Positions 13,788-31,339 of a stretch of 64,000 nt of DNA are shown piece after piece. Under the pieces are notes generated by a model. It did no database searches. It had not been told where the DNA came from and saw nothing but the letters and a program-made list of their open reading frames with translations. The stretch lies in NCBI RefSeq assembly GCF_000172155.1, contig NZ_ABIZ01000001.1, forward strand, positions 3,195,105 through 3,259,104, in the 5' to 3' direction. The DNA comes from Verrucomicrobium spinosum DSM 4136 = JCM 18804. GTDB taxonomy: Bacteria; Verrucomicrobiota; Verrucomicrobiia; Verrucomicrobiales; Verrucomicrobiaceae. Numbering within the stretch: the stretch's first letter is position 1; each line of letters opens with the position of its first letter. A program made the translations under genes and the position numbers.

Positions 13788-14240
13788 GAGATCTTCCTTC
13801 CAGACGATTGAAGGGCGGAGTGCGTCAACGATGAATCGAACGAAGGTGGAGACGTAGGAAGGTTGCGTTGGGCCGAGGGCGCTGCCTATTGATCACGACC
13901 GACGCATATCCTGCCGCGTGAAGTACGGAGGAGCGGCCTTGAATCTGGAGAAGCAAAGTGACAGGGGGTATTTTTTCTGAGGGCTGGATAATCAAAGCAG
14001 GAGGTTTTAATGGTGCCGGGCCGCTATTTGGGCTTGGGGATGAACACTTTTCGTGGAATAGCAAAACTTCCTGTTTCCAATTTGAAGAACCTGTGATAGT
14101 TTTCAGTCTCTAGCGAGAACACCTGTCCAATTCAAGGCATGGCAGGTCATCAGGTGAGTCTTTGTATTCAGTGGTGATTTGAAACCCGACGGTCGGGAAC
14201 AGTCGAAGATGCAGCAGTCGGTCCGAGCAGATGGTACAAG
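13788..14240. other. Intergenic leader region of the RNA-binding protein gene
   Basis: These 453 bases are lower in GC than their neighbours and hold no convincing gene; a minus-strand 79-codon frame at 13825-14064 is Pro/Ser-rich and unsupported. Close to the RRM gene is a tight 6-base inverted repeat (CCCGAC/GTCGGG at about 14182-14194). A long structured leader would be usual for a cold-inducible glycine-rich RRM gene, but this is inference. Confidence 0.35.
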
Positions 14241-14693
14241 ATGAATACGAAGATGTATGTTGGCAACCTGGCCTGGAGCGCCACGGAGCAAGATGTCCGT
14301 GAACTTTTCTCCCAGTATGGCGCGGTGACGGAAGTTAGCCTTCCCACGGATCGTGACACGGGCCGCCCGCGTGGCTTTGCCTTTGTGGCAATGGACACGA
14401 AGGAGGCAATGGACGCCGCTATCAAGGGTCTCAACGGCCTTGAGTGGATGGGCCGTGCGCTGACCGTGAATGAGGCTCGCCCCCGTGAGGAGCGCCCCTC
14501 CTATTCCGGCGGTGGTGGTGGTTACAGCGGTGGCGGTGGCGGCGGTGGTCGCAAAGGCGGCGGCGGCGGTTACGGCGGCGGCGGTGGCGGTGGTTACGGC
14601 GGCGGCGGCGGTGGCCGTGGTGACCGTCGTAGCGGCGGCGGTGGTGGTGGTTACGGCGGCGGCGGCGGTAGCCGTGGCGGTGATCGCTGGTAA
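14241..14693 (+). CDS. Glycine-rich RNA-binding protein with one RRM
   Basis: RNA chaperone-type protein of 150 residues. Residues 1-80 form one RNA recognition motif: RNP2 is MYVGNLAW at residues 5-12 and RNP1 is RGFAFVAM near 45-52. Residues 90-150 are a glycine-rich tail with repeated GGGYGGG and single Arg/Lys/Tyr residues. Such cold-shock-associated RRM proteins occur in cyanobacteria and many Gram-negatives and bind single-stranded RNA. The tail comes from a GGC/GGT-rich DNA stretch (about 14505-14690). A clear intrinsic terminator follows, so it is transcribed alone. Confidence 0.93.
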
Positions 14694-28123: not shown

Positions 28124-29368
28124 ATGCCTGCACTCAAGATTCTCCTCAGCTTTCTTGTTGGACTCACGATAGCCGGTTGCACCCTTCCCCAGCAGCCTTC
28201 AGTGCGTCCGGTGGGGCCCGCAGCGGCCCCCAATGCTCCCTTCACGCTGGGGATTGATGTGCTGGCGAGCAATGGCTATGACCTGCTCCGGGGCAAGCGC
28301 GTGGGGCTGATCTGCAACCAGACGAGCATGACGGGCAACGGTACGCTGACCCGGGTGGCATTGAGGCGTGCGGGTGTCAATCTGGTCGCGCTCTATGCTC
28401 CGGAGCACGGGGTAGATGGGACCATCAAGGCGGGAATTCATGTGCAGGATCGGAAGGATCCTGTGACGGGGTTGACGGTGTATTCCCTCTATGGCGACAC
28501 GCGCAAGCCAACACCGCGGATGCTGGCACCCATTGATGTCATGTTGTTTGATCTACAGGACATCGGCTCGCGCAGTTATACCTACATCTCCACCATGGTG
28601 GTGGCCATGGAGGCGTGCGGGGAGGGCGGAAAGGAGTTTATCGTGCTGGACCGGCCGAATCCGCTGGGGGGATGGCGCGTGGAGGGGCCGCCGGTGGAGC
28701 CTCAGTGGAAGTCTTTCGTAAGCCAGGTGAATGTGCCCTACGTGCATGGCATGACGACGGGGGAGCTGGCAATGATGGTGGCCGGAGAGGGGTGGATCAC
28801 CCGGCGGCCTCGTCTGAGGGTGGTGAAGATGCGGGGTTATGATCGCAACATGCTCTGGCAGGACACGGGGCTGCGTTGGTACCGTACGTCGCCGAACATT
28901 CCGCACGCGGGTTCGCCCTTGTACTACGTGGCGACGGGGATGCTCGGCGGGGCTGCGGCTGTCGATGTGGGGATTGGCACGGAGAATCCGTTCGGCTACG
29001 CGGGAGGTCGTGGGGTGAATCCGCAGGTGTTTGTCGACTATTGCCGACGCCTCGGTTTTCCTGGTGTGGGGTATGAGGCGTACGCGCGGGAGGGCTTTGG
29101 TGGCGTGAAGCTGCGCATGGATCCCAGAACTCCGGCGAATATCACGGCTCTGGACGTGTACTTGATCGCCGGTCTGCAGAATCAGACTCGTGGGGCGGTG
29201 CTTGGGCGGATGTCTGCCTCGCAGATCAGCCTGTTCAACAAGGTGTATGGCAGCGACAGTCTGCGGAGAGACCTGATGCGGGGAGTTTCTCCGACTCGTA
29301 TTGTCAGTTCCTGGAAGCGGTTCGAGGACGGCTTTCGCGCCAAGCGCCAGCGGTATCTGATGTACTGA
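28124..29368 (+). CDS. DUF1343 lipoprotein, NamZ-like exo-beta-N-acetylmuramidase
   Basis: A 414-residue lipoprotein with a short signal peptide and lipobox IAGC near residue 19. The body is the DUF1343 (YbbC/NamZ) family: GKRVGLICNQTSMT near residue 62, LYAPEHGVDG near 92, MLFDLQDIGSRSYTYIS near 140 and VLDRPNPLGG near 175. NamZ members release terminal N-acetylmuramic acid from peptidoglycan fragments, so a role in wall recycling or in feeding on wall debris is likely. It starts 13 bases after a possible small lipoprotein frame, with AAGGGG before the ATG. Its C-terminus (FRAKRQRYLMY) matches the usual family end, so the gene is complete. Confidence 0.9.
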   Translation: MPALKILLSFLVGLTIAGCTLPQQPSVRPVGPAAAPNAPFTLGIDVLASNGYDLLRGKRVGLICNQTSMTGNGTLTRVALRRAGVNLVALYAPEHGVDGTIKAGIHVQDRKDPVTGLTVYSLYGDTRKPTPRMLAPIDVMLFDLQDIGSRSYTYISTMVVAMEACGEGGKEFIVLDRPNPLGGWRVEGPPVEPQWKSFVSQVNVPYVHGMTTGELAMMVAGEGWITRRPRLRVVKMRGYDRNMLWQDTGLRWYRTSPNIPHAGSPLYYVATGMLGGAAAVDVGIGTENPFGYAGGRGVNPQVFVDYCRRLGFPGVGYEAYAREGFGGVKLRMDPRTPANITALDVYLIAGLQNQTRGAVLGRMSASQISLFNKVYGSDSLRRDLMRGVSPTRIVSSWKRFEDGFRAKRQRYLMY

Positions 29369-29498
29369 GGAGAGGGAGAAGGGAAGAGGGGTAAGGGCAA
29401 CGGGAGCGAACTTTGGGATGGCGGGAGGGGCCGGAAGTCGTTGGTAGGGCGCGGTTTGGGTTGCAACTAGGCATTAACTGGCTCACAATCCCGTGACC

Positions 29499-30077
29499 AT
29501 GGCAAAAAAAGCTGTAAAAAAGGCAACGACCCTCACCTCTCAACGCTCCGATGAGGAGGAGATGGCCTTTGCGGCCGCCACGTTCGCCGATGACAAGAAG
29601 GCGGAAGACATCGTGATCATGGACGTGCAGGGAATCTCGCCTGTGGCAGATTACTTTGTGATCTGCACCGCGACCTCGATGCCGCACCTCAAGGCCATTC
29701 GCAACGAGGTGAAGGACCGCTTTTGGGTCGAACACAATCGCAAACCCATCGCCGTGGATGAGAAGATGGAGAGTCTCTGGATCATCCTGCACTACGGGGA
29801 TGTGATGGTGCATGTTTTCCACAAGGAAAAGCGCGACTTCTACGCTCTGGAAGAGCTCTGGGGCGACGCGCCGCGGGTCGCCTGGCAGCCGACCGTGCCG
29901 GTGCCCGCCGCTCCTGCGCCCAAGGCCAAGAAAGCAGCTGCTCCTGCCAAGAAAGCAGCTGCTCCTGCCAAGAAAGCAGCTGCTCCTGCCAAAAAGGCCG
30001 CTGCCCCTGCCAAGAAATCTGCCGCCAAAAAAGCCTCTGCAAAGAAGGCTCCTGCCAAGAAGGCCGCGCGTAAGTAG
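29499..30077 (+). CDS. rsfS: Ribosome silencing factor RsfS with histone-H1-like Lys/Ala/Pro tail
   Basis: Binds ribosomal protein uL14 and blocks subunit joining under starvation. With ATG 29499 it has 192 residues. The RsfS domain covers ~20-125 (KKAEDIVIMDVQGISPVADYFVICTA; SLWIILHYGDVMVHVF). Both ends are unusual: a short basic N-terminus (MAKKAVKKATT) and a ~55-residue tail of KKAAAPA repeats followed by KKASAKKAPAKKAA, like bacterial histone-H1-type tails. The usual protein is ~110-130 residues. The tail is encoded by four 21-base DNA repeats. cinA follows 5 bases after the stop, so the two are co-translated. The tail may bind rRNA or DNA. Confidence 0.9.
   Translation: MAKKAVKKATTLTSQRSDEEEMAFAAATFADDKKAEDIVIMDVQGISPVADYFVICTATSMPHLKAIRNEVKDRFWVEHNRKPIAVDEKMESLWIILHYGDVMVHVFHKEKRDFYALEELWGDAPRVAWQPTVPVPAAPAPKAKKAAAPAKKAAAPAKKAAAPAKKAAAPAKKSAAKKASAKKAPAKKAARK
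29925..30008 (+). repeat. Four tandem 21-bp repeats encoding the RsfS tail
   Basis: Three identical units (GCCAAGAAAGCAGCTGCTCC plus T) followed by one diverged copy, in frame and encoding AKKAAAP each. The near-identical DNA suggests recent slippage or expansion, so the copy number probably varies between strains. Confidence 0.85.
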
Positions 30078-30082
30078 TCGGC

Positions 30083-31339
30083 ATGAGGTTGGAACTCATC
30101 AATACGGGCACGGAACTGCTCATCGGCGACGTCATCAACACGAACGCGGCCTGGCTGGGGCAGCGCATGGTTGATCTGGGGGTGCTCGTACAACGCGCCA
30201 CCATCGTGCCGGATGGCATGGCGATTGAGGAGGCGCTCAATGAGGCGGTGCGCCGTTCAGATGTCGTGATCATCACGGGTGGACTGGGCCCGACAGCAGA
30301 CGATGTCTCCAGAGAGGCTGCCGCAGGAGTGCTTGGGCTGGCCCTTGAGACGGATCCTGAGGTCATGAAGGTGCTGGAGGCGATCTTTGCCCGATCGGGC
30401 AAGCTGGTCAATGAGCACAATCAACGACAGGCCTTGGTGGTGAAGGGGGCGCATGTGCTGGCCAATCCCCATGGCACCGCTCCGGGATTGCATCTGCCCG
30501 CGAGCTTGGGCGCACCCAAAGGTCTGCATTGCACACTGTTTCTTTTGCCCGGACCGCCCAGGGAACTGAAGCCGATGATGGTGGAGCTGGTGGAGCCCAT
30601 CATACGGGGGATGCTGCCAGGTGGCACGGATAAGGAGTGTCGCTATTTCAAATTTACCGGGATTGGTGAATCGGACATCTCGATGGCGCTCCAGGAAGGC
30701 CTGGAAGCCATTGGCGACCTGGAAATTGGGTATTGCCTGGGTAAGGGTGATGTGGACGTGCGGTTGAATGGACCCGTCGGCGCTCTGGATCGTGCCGGAG
30801 TCTTCTGTCGGGAGAAGCTGGGCGAGTTCCTGGTTTCTGATGACCGTCGCCTCGTGGAAGAGGTGGTGGTGGGCCTGTTGAAGGATCGCGGGGAATGGCT
30901 TGCCACGGCGGAGAGTTGCACGGGTGGCTTCATCGCCCATCGCGTCACAAACGTCAGCGGGGCCTCAGGCGTGTTCGGGCATGGCTTGGTGACCTATGCC
31001 AATGAGGCCAAGATCCAGCACCTCGGCGTGCCGGCTGAACTGATCGAGGAACATGGTGCGGTCAGTGAACCGGTGGCTGCGGCCATGGCGGAGGGATGCC
31101 TCCGCGTTAGCGGTGCGGATCACGCCGTGGCGGTCACGGGAATAGCCGGGCCTACGGGGGGAACCTCTGAGAAACCCACCGGCACGGTGTTTATCGCGCT
31201 GGCGTCCAAGGGTGTTCCCGTAGAGGTGCGCAAGCGCTGGTATCGGGGAGAGCGGGAGCGATTTAAGATTCTGACCAGTCAAACGGCGCTCGACTTTGTC
31301 CGGCGGCGTCTGCAAGGGTATGCCTTGCCGAACGGCTGA
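30083..31339 (+). CDS. cinA: CinA family protein (COG1058 domain + NMN deamidase domain)
   Basis: A 418-residue two-domain protein. Residues 1-170 form the MoaB/MogA-like CinA domain (MRLELINTGTELLIGDVINT, VIITGGLGPTADDVSREA, FLLPGPPREL), tied to pyrophosphatase activity on ADP-ribose-type nucleotides. Residues ~260-410 form the nicotinamide-mononucleotide amidohydrolase domain (AESCTGGFIAHRVT, YANEAKIQHLGV, AVTGIAGPTGGT). Together they recycle pyridine nucleotides. It starts 5 bases after rsfS on the same strand; the next gene is 80 bases away. Both ends fit the family length, so it looks complete. Confidence 0.95.
   Translation: MRLELINTGTELLIGDVINTNAAWLGQRMVDLGVLVQRATIVPDGMAIEEALNEAVRRSDVVIITGGLGPTADDVSREAAAGVLGLALETDPEVMKVLEAIFARSGKLVNEHNQRQALVVKGAHVLANPHGTAPGLHLPASLGAPKGLHCTLFLLPGPPRELKPMMVELVEPIIRGMLPGGTDKECRYFKFTGIGESDISMALQEGLEAIGDLEIGYCLGKGDVDVRLNGPVGALDRAGVFCREKLGEFLVSDDRRLVEEVVVGLLKDRGEWLATAESCTGGFIAHRVTNVSGASGVFGHGLVTYANEAKIQHLGVPAELIEEHGAVSEPVAAAMAEGCLRVSGADHAVAVTGIAGPTGGTSEKPTGTVFIALASKGVPVEVRKRWYRGERERFKILTSQTALDFVRRRLQGYALPNG

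Follow-up and report, generated by a model that had tools for sequence, protein, structure and literature searches.

A repeat-bearing lysine/alanine/proline tail on the ribosome silencing factor RsfS of Verrucomicrobium spinosum

RsfS is commonly treated as a small fixed domain. In the stretch of Verrucomicrobium spinosum DNA analysed here (64,000 nucleotides, the window), the rsfS gene continues past the conserved core into a long lysine-, alanine- and proline-rich tail. This raises the question whether the tail is a passing product of repeated DNA or a lasting part of the protein, and, if the latter, which partner it would bind. The features of the gene are:

29499-30077, + strand: rsfS gene, 192 amino acids, with ATG at 29499 and TAG at 30075-30077
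29499-29558, + strand: basic N-terminus MAKKAVKKATTLTSQRSDEE, with four Lys within the first eight residues and conserved in the two nearest species
29574-29861, + strand: RsfS core domain (residues 26-121), with a PF02410 match and a predicted fold, acidic overall
29790-29792, + strand: His98, which aligns with the conserved Asp81 of E. coli RsfS
29880-30074, + strand: Lys/Ala/Pro tail of 65 amino acids, predicted disordered, net charge +19, without Asp or Glu

The rsfS gene and its product

The gene is single-copy in the genome, which is one contig of 8.22 Mb. Both of its neighbours are on the same strand, with NamZ (28124-29368) lying upstream and CinA, which starts at 30083, downstream. 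Among 15 loci checked in family f1, to which the window belongs, CinA directly follows rsfS in seven (the window, its two nearest species G001 and G003, and L019, L021, L030 and L014) and was not found right after it in the other eight, including L002, a short contig. The ATG at 29499 is favoured as start because the N-terminal MAKKAVKKA is conserved in G001 and G003, while the codon at the in-frame GTG at 29493 (Val here) is Ser in both.

The first-pass annotation had named the product RsfS, and family profiles and predicted fold identify it as a genuine one. PF02410 matches residues 26-121 (E 1.1e-30, 106.1 bits; cut-off 21.6) and the equivalog TIGR00090 scores 108.3 bits (cut-off 56.9). Of the thirteen distinct PDB sequences that match the protein, 11 bear the name RsfS, iojap-like or MALSU1, and the remaining two, 2o5a and 2id1, are RsfS orthologues according to the accessible text of PMC3400551. 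An AlphaFold model, computed from an alignment of the window RsfS with nine related proteins, had a mean pLDDT of 70.9 and a pTM of 0.56. Its top eight structural matches among PDB chains were RsfS relatives (Z 14.3-18.8). Matches included M. tuberculosis RsfS (4wcw_A; Z 18.8, rmsd 1.8 over 114 residues), the RsfS chain of a pre-50S particle from a rimM knockout (9ss4_FS; Z 17.3, rmsd 1.2 over 103), proteins of B. halodurans (Z 16.7) and C. violaceum (Z 16.4), and S. aureus RsfS on the 50S subunit (Z 15.4). DNA polymerase lambda and alarmone synthetases also appeared (Z 7.3-8.6); we take these to reflect a common nucleotidyltransferase-like arrangement and not to be RsfS relatives.

A histone-H1-like Lys/Ala/Pro tail of about 55 residues and a basic N-terminus had likewise been proposed, and both agree with the composition found. 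The tail measures 57 residues when counted from PAAPAP and 65 from the core end, and these 65 comprise 29 Ala, 18 Lys, 10 Pro and one Arg, with no Asp or Glu. In 10-residue blocks, pLDDT is 73-92 in the core and 45-56 in the tail, residues 1-13 fall below 50, and the model has no helix or strand beyond residue 127. The tail is predicted to be disordered, and the segment has the marks of an H1-like tail, being rich in Lys, Ala and Pro, basic, and a repeat segment of predicted disorder. Its charge of +19 compares with a maximum of +16 among 100,000 random 65-mers drawn with the codon usage of the window. The last 40 residues carry +14, against a mean of 1.5 (sd 3.2, maximum 7) for the 42 gene-like open reading frames of the window, a set of frames of at least 200 amino acids that leaves RsfS itself (192) outside. 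Core and tail are oppositely charged, with -6 for residues 21-127 versus +19.

The window RsfS shares with the RsfS/YbeB/iojap/MALSU1 family (PF02410, TIGR00090) the core, Trp94, His105, Arg112 and Tyr115, the predicted fold and the single copy, but adds the 65-residue polycationic tail, the basic N-terminus and a His for Asp81. Lys/Ala/Pro-rich repeats like those of the tail occur in AlgP and PhaF of Pseudomonas, Hc2 of Chlamydia, BpH1 of Bordetella and HupB of mycobacteria (for HupB see PMC5676037), but these are DNA- or granule-associated proteins, whereas the window tail sits on a ribosome silencing factor. Streptomyces topoisomerase I has C-terminal Lys repeats on a conserved core, reported to give processivity (PMC7398561), and is, unlike RsfS, a DNA enzyme. 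Domain and tail type are both known; the matches listed in our literature searches held no description of RsfS tails, nor of this combination.

Repeat units and recurrence of the tail

The tail is encoded in part by tandem units of 21 bp, described earlier as near-identical:

29928-29948, 29949-29969 and 29970-29990, + strand: three identical units AAGAAAGCAGCTGCTCCTGCC, each encoding KKAAAPA
29991-30011, + strand: fourth unit with four mismatches, resembling the second unit of G001

The array found by TRF spans 29925-30017 (period 21, 4.4 copies, 91% match, score 158), and no further copy with at most four mismatches occurs elsewhere in the window; the remainder of the tail (30012-30074), beyond the 21-bp array, is KKA(S/P)A-like. 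The probability that three KKAAAPA units match at every synonymous site by chance is 2.2e-6 with the codon usage of the window, and the units are therefore recent DNA copies, the DNA itself having been duplicated. Length had been expected to vary between strains; the number of units varies between species, each represented by one genome: at the same place the window has four KKAAAPA-type units, G001 two and G003 one (KKVAAPA). Through the core end, G001 differs from the window by one residue and 17 of 381 bases, and G003 by no residue and 27 of 381 bases. Two mismatches separate the first unit of the window from the first of G001, and likewise the fourth of the window from the second of G001. 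This fits a gain of units in the window lineage, though losses elsewhere could also explain it. In the fourth genome of the genus, G002, the tail is basic but lacks the KKAAAPA unit; the reading frame and KAARK end of the tail, kept in G001 and G003, are not kept there. The window contains a second repeat-built tail, a Gly-rich one from 21-27-bp tandem repeats at 14178-14690, on what is presumably an RNA-recognition-motif protein, likely RNA-binding. Repeat number or size varies in AlgP, Hc2 and BpH1 as well (PMC9239181, PMC2848022), with Hc2 (PMC2848022) and AlgP (PMC9239181) as precedents for a change of repeat number in H1-like proteins.

RsfS was found in 56 of 57 genomes searched, the own genome among them. 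Family f1 makes up 36 of these genomes, 35 with RsfS, and all 35 proteins were read, with the RsfS of G019 split across two contigs and that of G002 lacking its N-terminus. Basic tails occur in 26 of the 35, the window RsfS included (24 by the automatic tail rule, and L030 and L043 by eye), and C-terminal extensions of at least 30 residues in 24. The other nine RsfS have no tail and end 3-13 residues past the aligned core. Absence of the tail in close relatives had been named as an observation that would count against the proposal; tails are instead present in all three other genomes of the genus, besides recurring throughout the family. The tail as a lone oddity or assembly error is ruled out by this recurrence. 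In the last 30 residues or fewer of the 26 tailed proteins, 763 positions hold five Asp or Glu, with 41% Lys and 35% Ala; composition is conserved whereas sequence and length drift.

No extension of at least 30 residues was found in the RsfS of family f2 (0/21), of families f3-f6 (0/15, of which three or four bear N-terminal K/A segments) or of sampled phylum members outside the class (0/18). In the class sample the length rule selected 11 of 34; one, L129, was dropped as a domain mis-hit and the remaining ten all belong to family f9. Ten of the 16 RsfS sampled from f9 carry such an extension, all ten net positive (+11 to +27). These phylum loci outside f1 (21 from the first genome search, 27 new and 40 hand-picked) are a sample and not a census.

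The same holds for the Burkholderiales, the order to which we take the Variovorax genome to belong: 119 of 120 genomes have RsfS, and the 70 loci sampled are the best 30 plus 40 hand-picked. An extension of at least 30 residues is present in 11 of the 70, net positive in each (+4 to +36, and at least +10 in all but one). Eight of the 70 satisfy the K/A rule, of which seven belong to the 11 long-extended proteins and the eighth extends by 26 residues. RsfS of Variovorax, Comamonadaceae and Janthinobacterium (L034-L038) combine the RsfS core (TIGR00090 at 102 and 107 bits for two of them) with basic K/A-rich C-terminal extensions of 109-128 residues, and their frequency is biased, AKKAPAKK having been among the query patterns that found them. 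They differ from the window RsfS in having kept Asp81, in their longer and less regular tails, and in belonging to another phylum. The earlier statement that RsfS normally ends soon past the core stands for most RsfS read and fails for f1, f9 and part of the Burkholderiales sample; in these three separate groups, the long extensions are basic throughout.

Could the tail then be neutral, its K/A codon repeats growing by replication slippage and being tolerated since a C-terminal tail is harmless? The three exact DNA units do suggest slippage, nine of the 35 f1 proteins manage without a tail, and unrelated proteins such as ArgG bear similar tails. However, tails in f1 stay basic, with only the five acidic residues given above, long extensions carry a net positive charge in all three of the separate groups, and frame and KAARK end are conserved in the two nearest species, if not in G002. 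We therefore regard neutral slippage as a doubtful explanation of the tail.

The Asp81 position and uL14

The three most conserved RsfS residues named in PMC3400551 are Trp77, Asp81 and Arg95 (E. coli numbers), and the same source predicts a contact of Asp81 with Arg98 of uL14. In the S. aureus crystal structure Asp81 has two potential hydrogen bonds to uL14, both absent in the cryo-EM model; when four interface residues of S. aureus RsfS were mutated to Ala, the D81A and W77A proteins were insoluble (PMC9503621, accessible part). The window RsfS has the Trp and the Arg of this trio, with His98 in place of Asp81, a residue used here as a mark of conservation, outside the curated RsfS family definition. 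Outside f1, Asp81 is retained in 157 of 158 RsfS, a count that omits nine named pattern-search loci (eight with Asp, one with Asn, the latter in a Prosthecobacter). Within f1 it is retained in 6 of 35 and lost in 29 (12 His, 9 Asn, 6 Val and 2 Gly), while equivalents of Trp77, His88, Arg95 and Tyr98 are present in all 35.

Tail and Asp81 loss coincide in plain counts: 25 RsfS without Asp81 are tailed and 4 tail-less, against 1 tailed and 5 tail-less with Asp81 (Fisher p = 0.002). On a tree of RsfS core and uL14 from 56 genomes, built with the Asp81 column removed, f1 is a single clade (support 100/98). The minimum number of undirected changes is four for Asp81 kept or lost, five for residue identity and four for the tail. 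Supported branches yield three independent pairs, of which an average of 0.5 differ at Asp81. Because there are only three such pairs, a link between the tail and Asp81 loss cannot be claimed, and this candidate association was rejected despite the Fisher value. Tail-less lineages also lack Asp81 (His in G013 and G019, Gly in G005 and G015), and tailed proteins that have kept it are found in G030 of f1 and in the Burkholderiales.

The uL14 partner residues for RsfS are present in the own genome. No covariation of uL14 with Asp81 was found in 54 genomes, and since the RsfS-facing Arg and Lys are invariant in all of these, there is no sign of uL14 adapting to the tail. The Thr before the Arg of its GTR/GSR motif is Ser in part of f1, regardless of Asp81. 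Separately, uL14 has one extra residue (Asn29 here) in 34 of 34 f1 sequences and in none of 20 outgroup sequences. It is conceivable, if improbable, that in f1 the exact contact of RsfS with uL14 was partly replaced by a looser, electrostatic one, the uL14-facing Asp81 being released repeatedly and slippage-adjustable polycationic tails taking on some of the grip on the 50S subunit. If so, silencing strength would be a trait tunable by 21-bp slippage.

Candidate partners of the tail

The RsfS tail is one of several of its type in the genome. KKAxAKKA gives four matches in three genes of the own genome, namely RsfS (twice), uL29 and L096 (internal). This pattern prompted the idea that the tail is a ribosome-only mark, which was dropped since KKAxxKK also finds the tails of Ku and ArgG. 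The latter pattern has 20 matches in 16 frames (reversed control, 3 forward and 0 reverse). In 11 of the 16 the motif lies in a K/A-rich terminal tail or the whole protein is of this kind; in five it is internal or the frame doubtful. The 11 are RsfS, uL29 (PF00831), Ku (PF02735), argininosuccinate synthase (PF00764), a zinc-finger protein of the SWIM type (PF04434), the terminal part of a PEP-utilising enzyme (PF02896), a small protein resembling H1 and four that match no Pfam family. The genome also encodes bL25 (PF01386) with a related A/P/K/G tail. Ten relatives were read for tailed proteins, nine of them with KKAxAKKA, and the K/A-tailed ones include what we take to be uL22, Rho and a DksA-like protein.

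Some of these tails deserve mention in themselves. The uL29 tail, about 30 residues, is present in the own genome (L097/L313, G000 C1:5532147), G001, G003 and G008 (L172, L154, L174), the Pfam check covering the own copy. Small, nearly pure Lys/Ala/Pro (H1-like) proteins occur in the own genome and G008 (L298:1366-1560 and L157:1354-1686). In L311 (PF02896) and, by resemblance, L175, a similar stretch continues in frame from the PEP-utilising enzyme, and the tail of argininosuccinate synthase (ArgG, L315:1501-2907) is odd for a metabolic enzyme. From these sequences the K/A tail is a general appendage in the group, carried by about ten other proteins of the own genome and predicted to bind polyanions. 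With so many bearers, presence of the tail alone cannot select between rRNA and nucleoid DNA, the two ligands suggested at first, or another polyanion.

The RsfS core itself narrows the choice. S. aureus RsfS adjoins bL19 and helix H95 of 23S rRNA (PMC7125091, accessible part), and because the window core should sit beside H95, rRNA would be the first polyanion met by a flexible chain of charge +19. For this reason we give about an even chance to what we consider the most likely role of the tail, electrostatic retention of RsfS on 50S rRNA. The core would dock on uL14 of the 50S subunit and prevent joining of the 30S, and the added disordered polycationic tail would make a sequence-independent electrostatic contact with the rRNA next to where the core docks, so that the otherwise acidic RsfS would come off more slowly. 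The charge and reach of the tail would depend on how many KKAAAPA units it has, a number that changes through in-frame 21-bp duplication or deletion. The opposite charges of core and tail and the predicted disorder of the latter favour retention on rRNA, as do a composition held while length drifts and extensions of at least 30 residues that are net positive wherever met. It is favoured further by the same tail on the 50S protein uL29 of the own genome, and by tails on the proteins of relatives that we take to be uL22 and Rho. In bacterial ribosomal proteins, Lys-rich regions of low complexity have been interpreted as nucleic-acid binding (PMC6821194). On the other side, nine of 35 f1 proteins and most RsfS elsewhere lack a tail, which is therefore dispensable for RsfS, and since Ku, the SWIM protein, the H1-like protein and ArgG share it, this kind of tail is not specific to the ribosome in the own genome. 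The invariant RsfS-facing residues of uL14, with no sign of adaptation to the tail, also count against retention.

Two other polyanions have to be weighed. Firstly, an H1-like tail could hold RsfS, or RsfS-bound 50S, on chromosomal DNA: the own genome has the same tails on the DNA-binding Ku, the SWIM protein and a 53-residue H1-like protein, and in AlgP, as far as described in the accessible source, KPAA-repeat peptides bind DNA and the tail is required for granule spacing. Still, the folded part of RsfS should bind the 50S subunit, making rRNA the nearest polyanion after docking, and a ribosomal protein, uL29, is tailed too, so a nucleoid tether seems unlikely. Secondly, the Lys tail could bind polyphosphate under starvation, when RsfS acts, and alter its activity or place. 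In E. coli, polyphosphate is bound by a disordered Lys-rich segment of YihI, which activates the GTPase Der (PMC12345225), and AlgP with its K/A/P repeats has been found on polyphosphate granules (PMC9239181). However, the name RsfS has 0 occurrences in the accessible part of PMC12345225, and the tail has none of the acidic residues of PASK motifs and lacks most of their serines, which makes a polyphosphate sensor quite improbable.

If retention on rRNA is true, a recurring polycationic tail of variable length would give RsfS a simple evolutionary dial on the duration of 50S silencing. The frequent loss of Asp81 in family f1 offers, in turn, a natural test of which parts of the RsfS-uL14 interface are needed.
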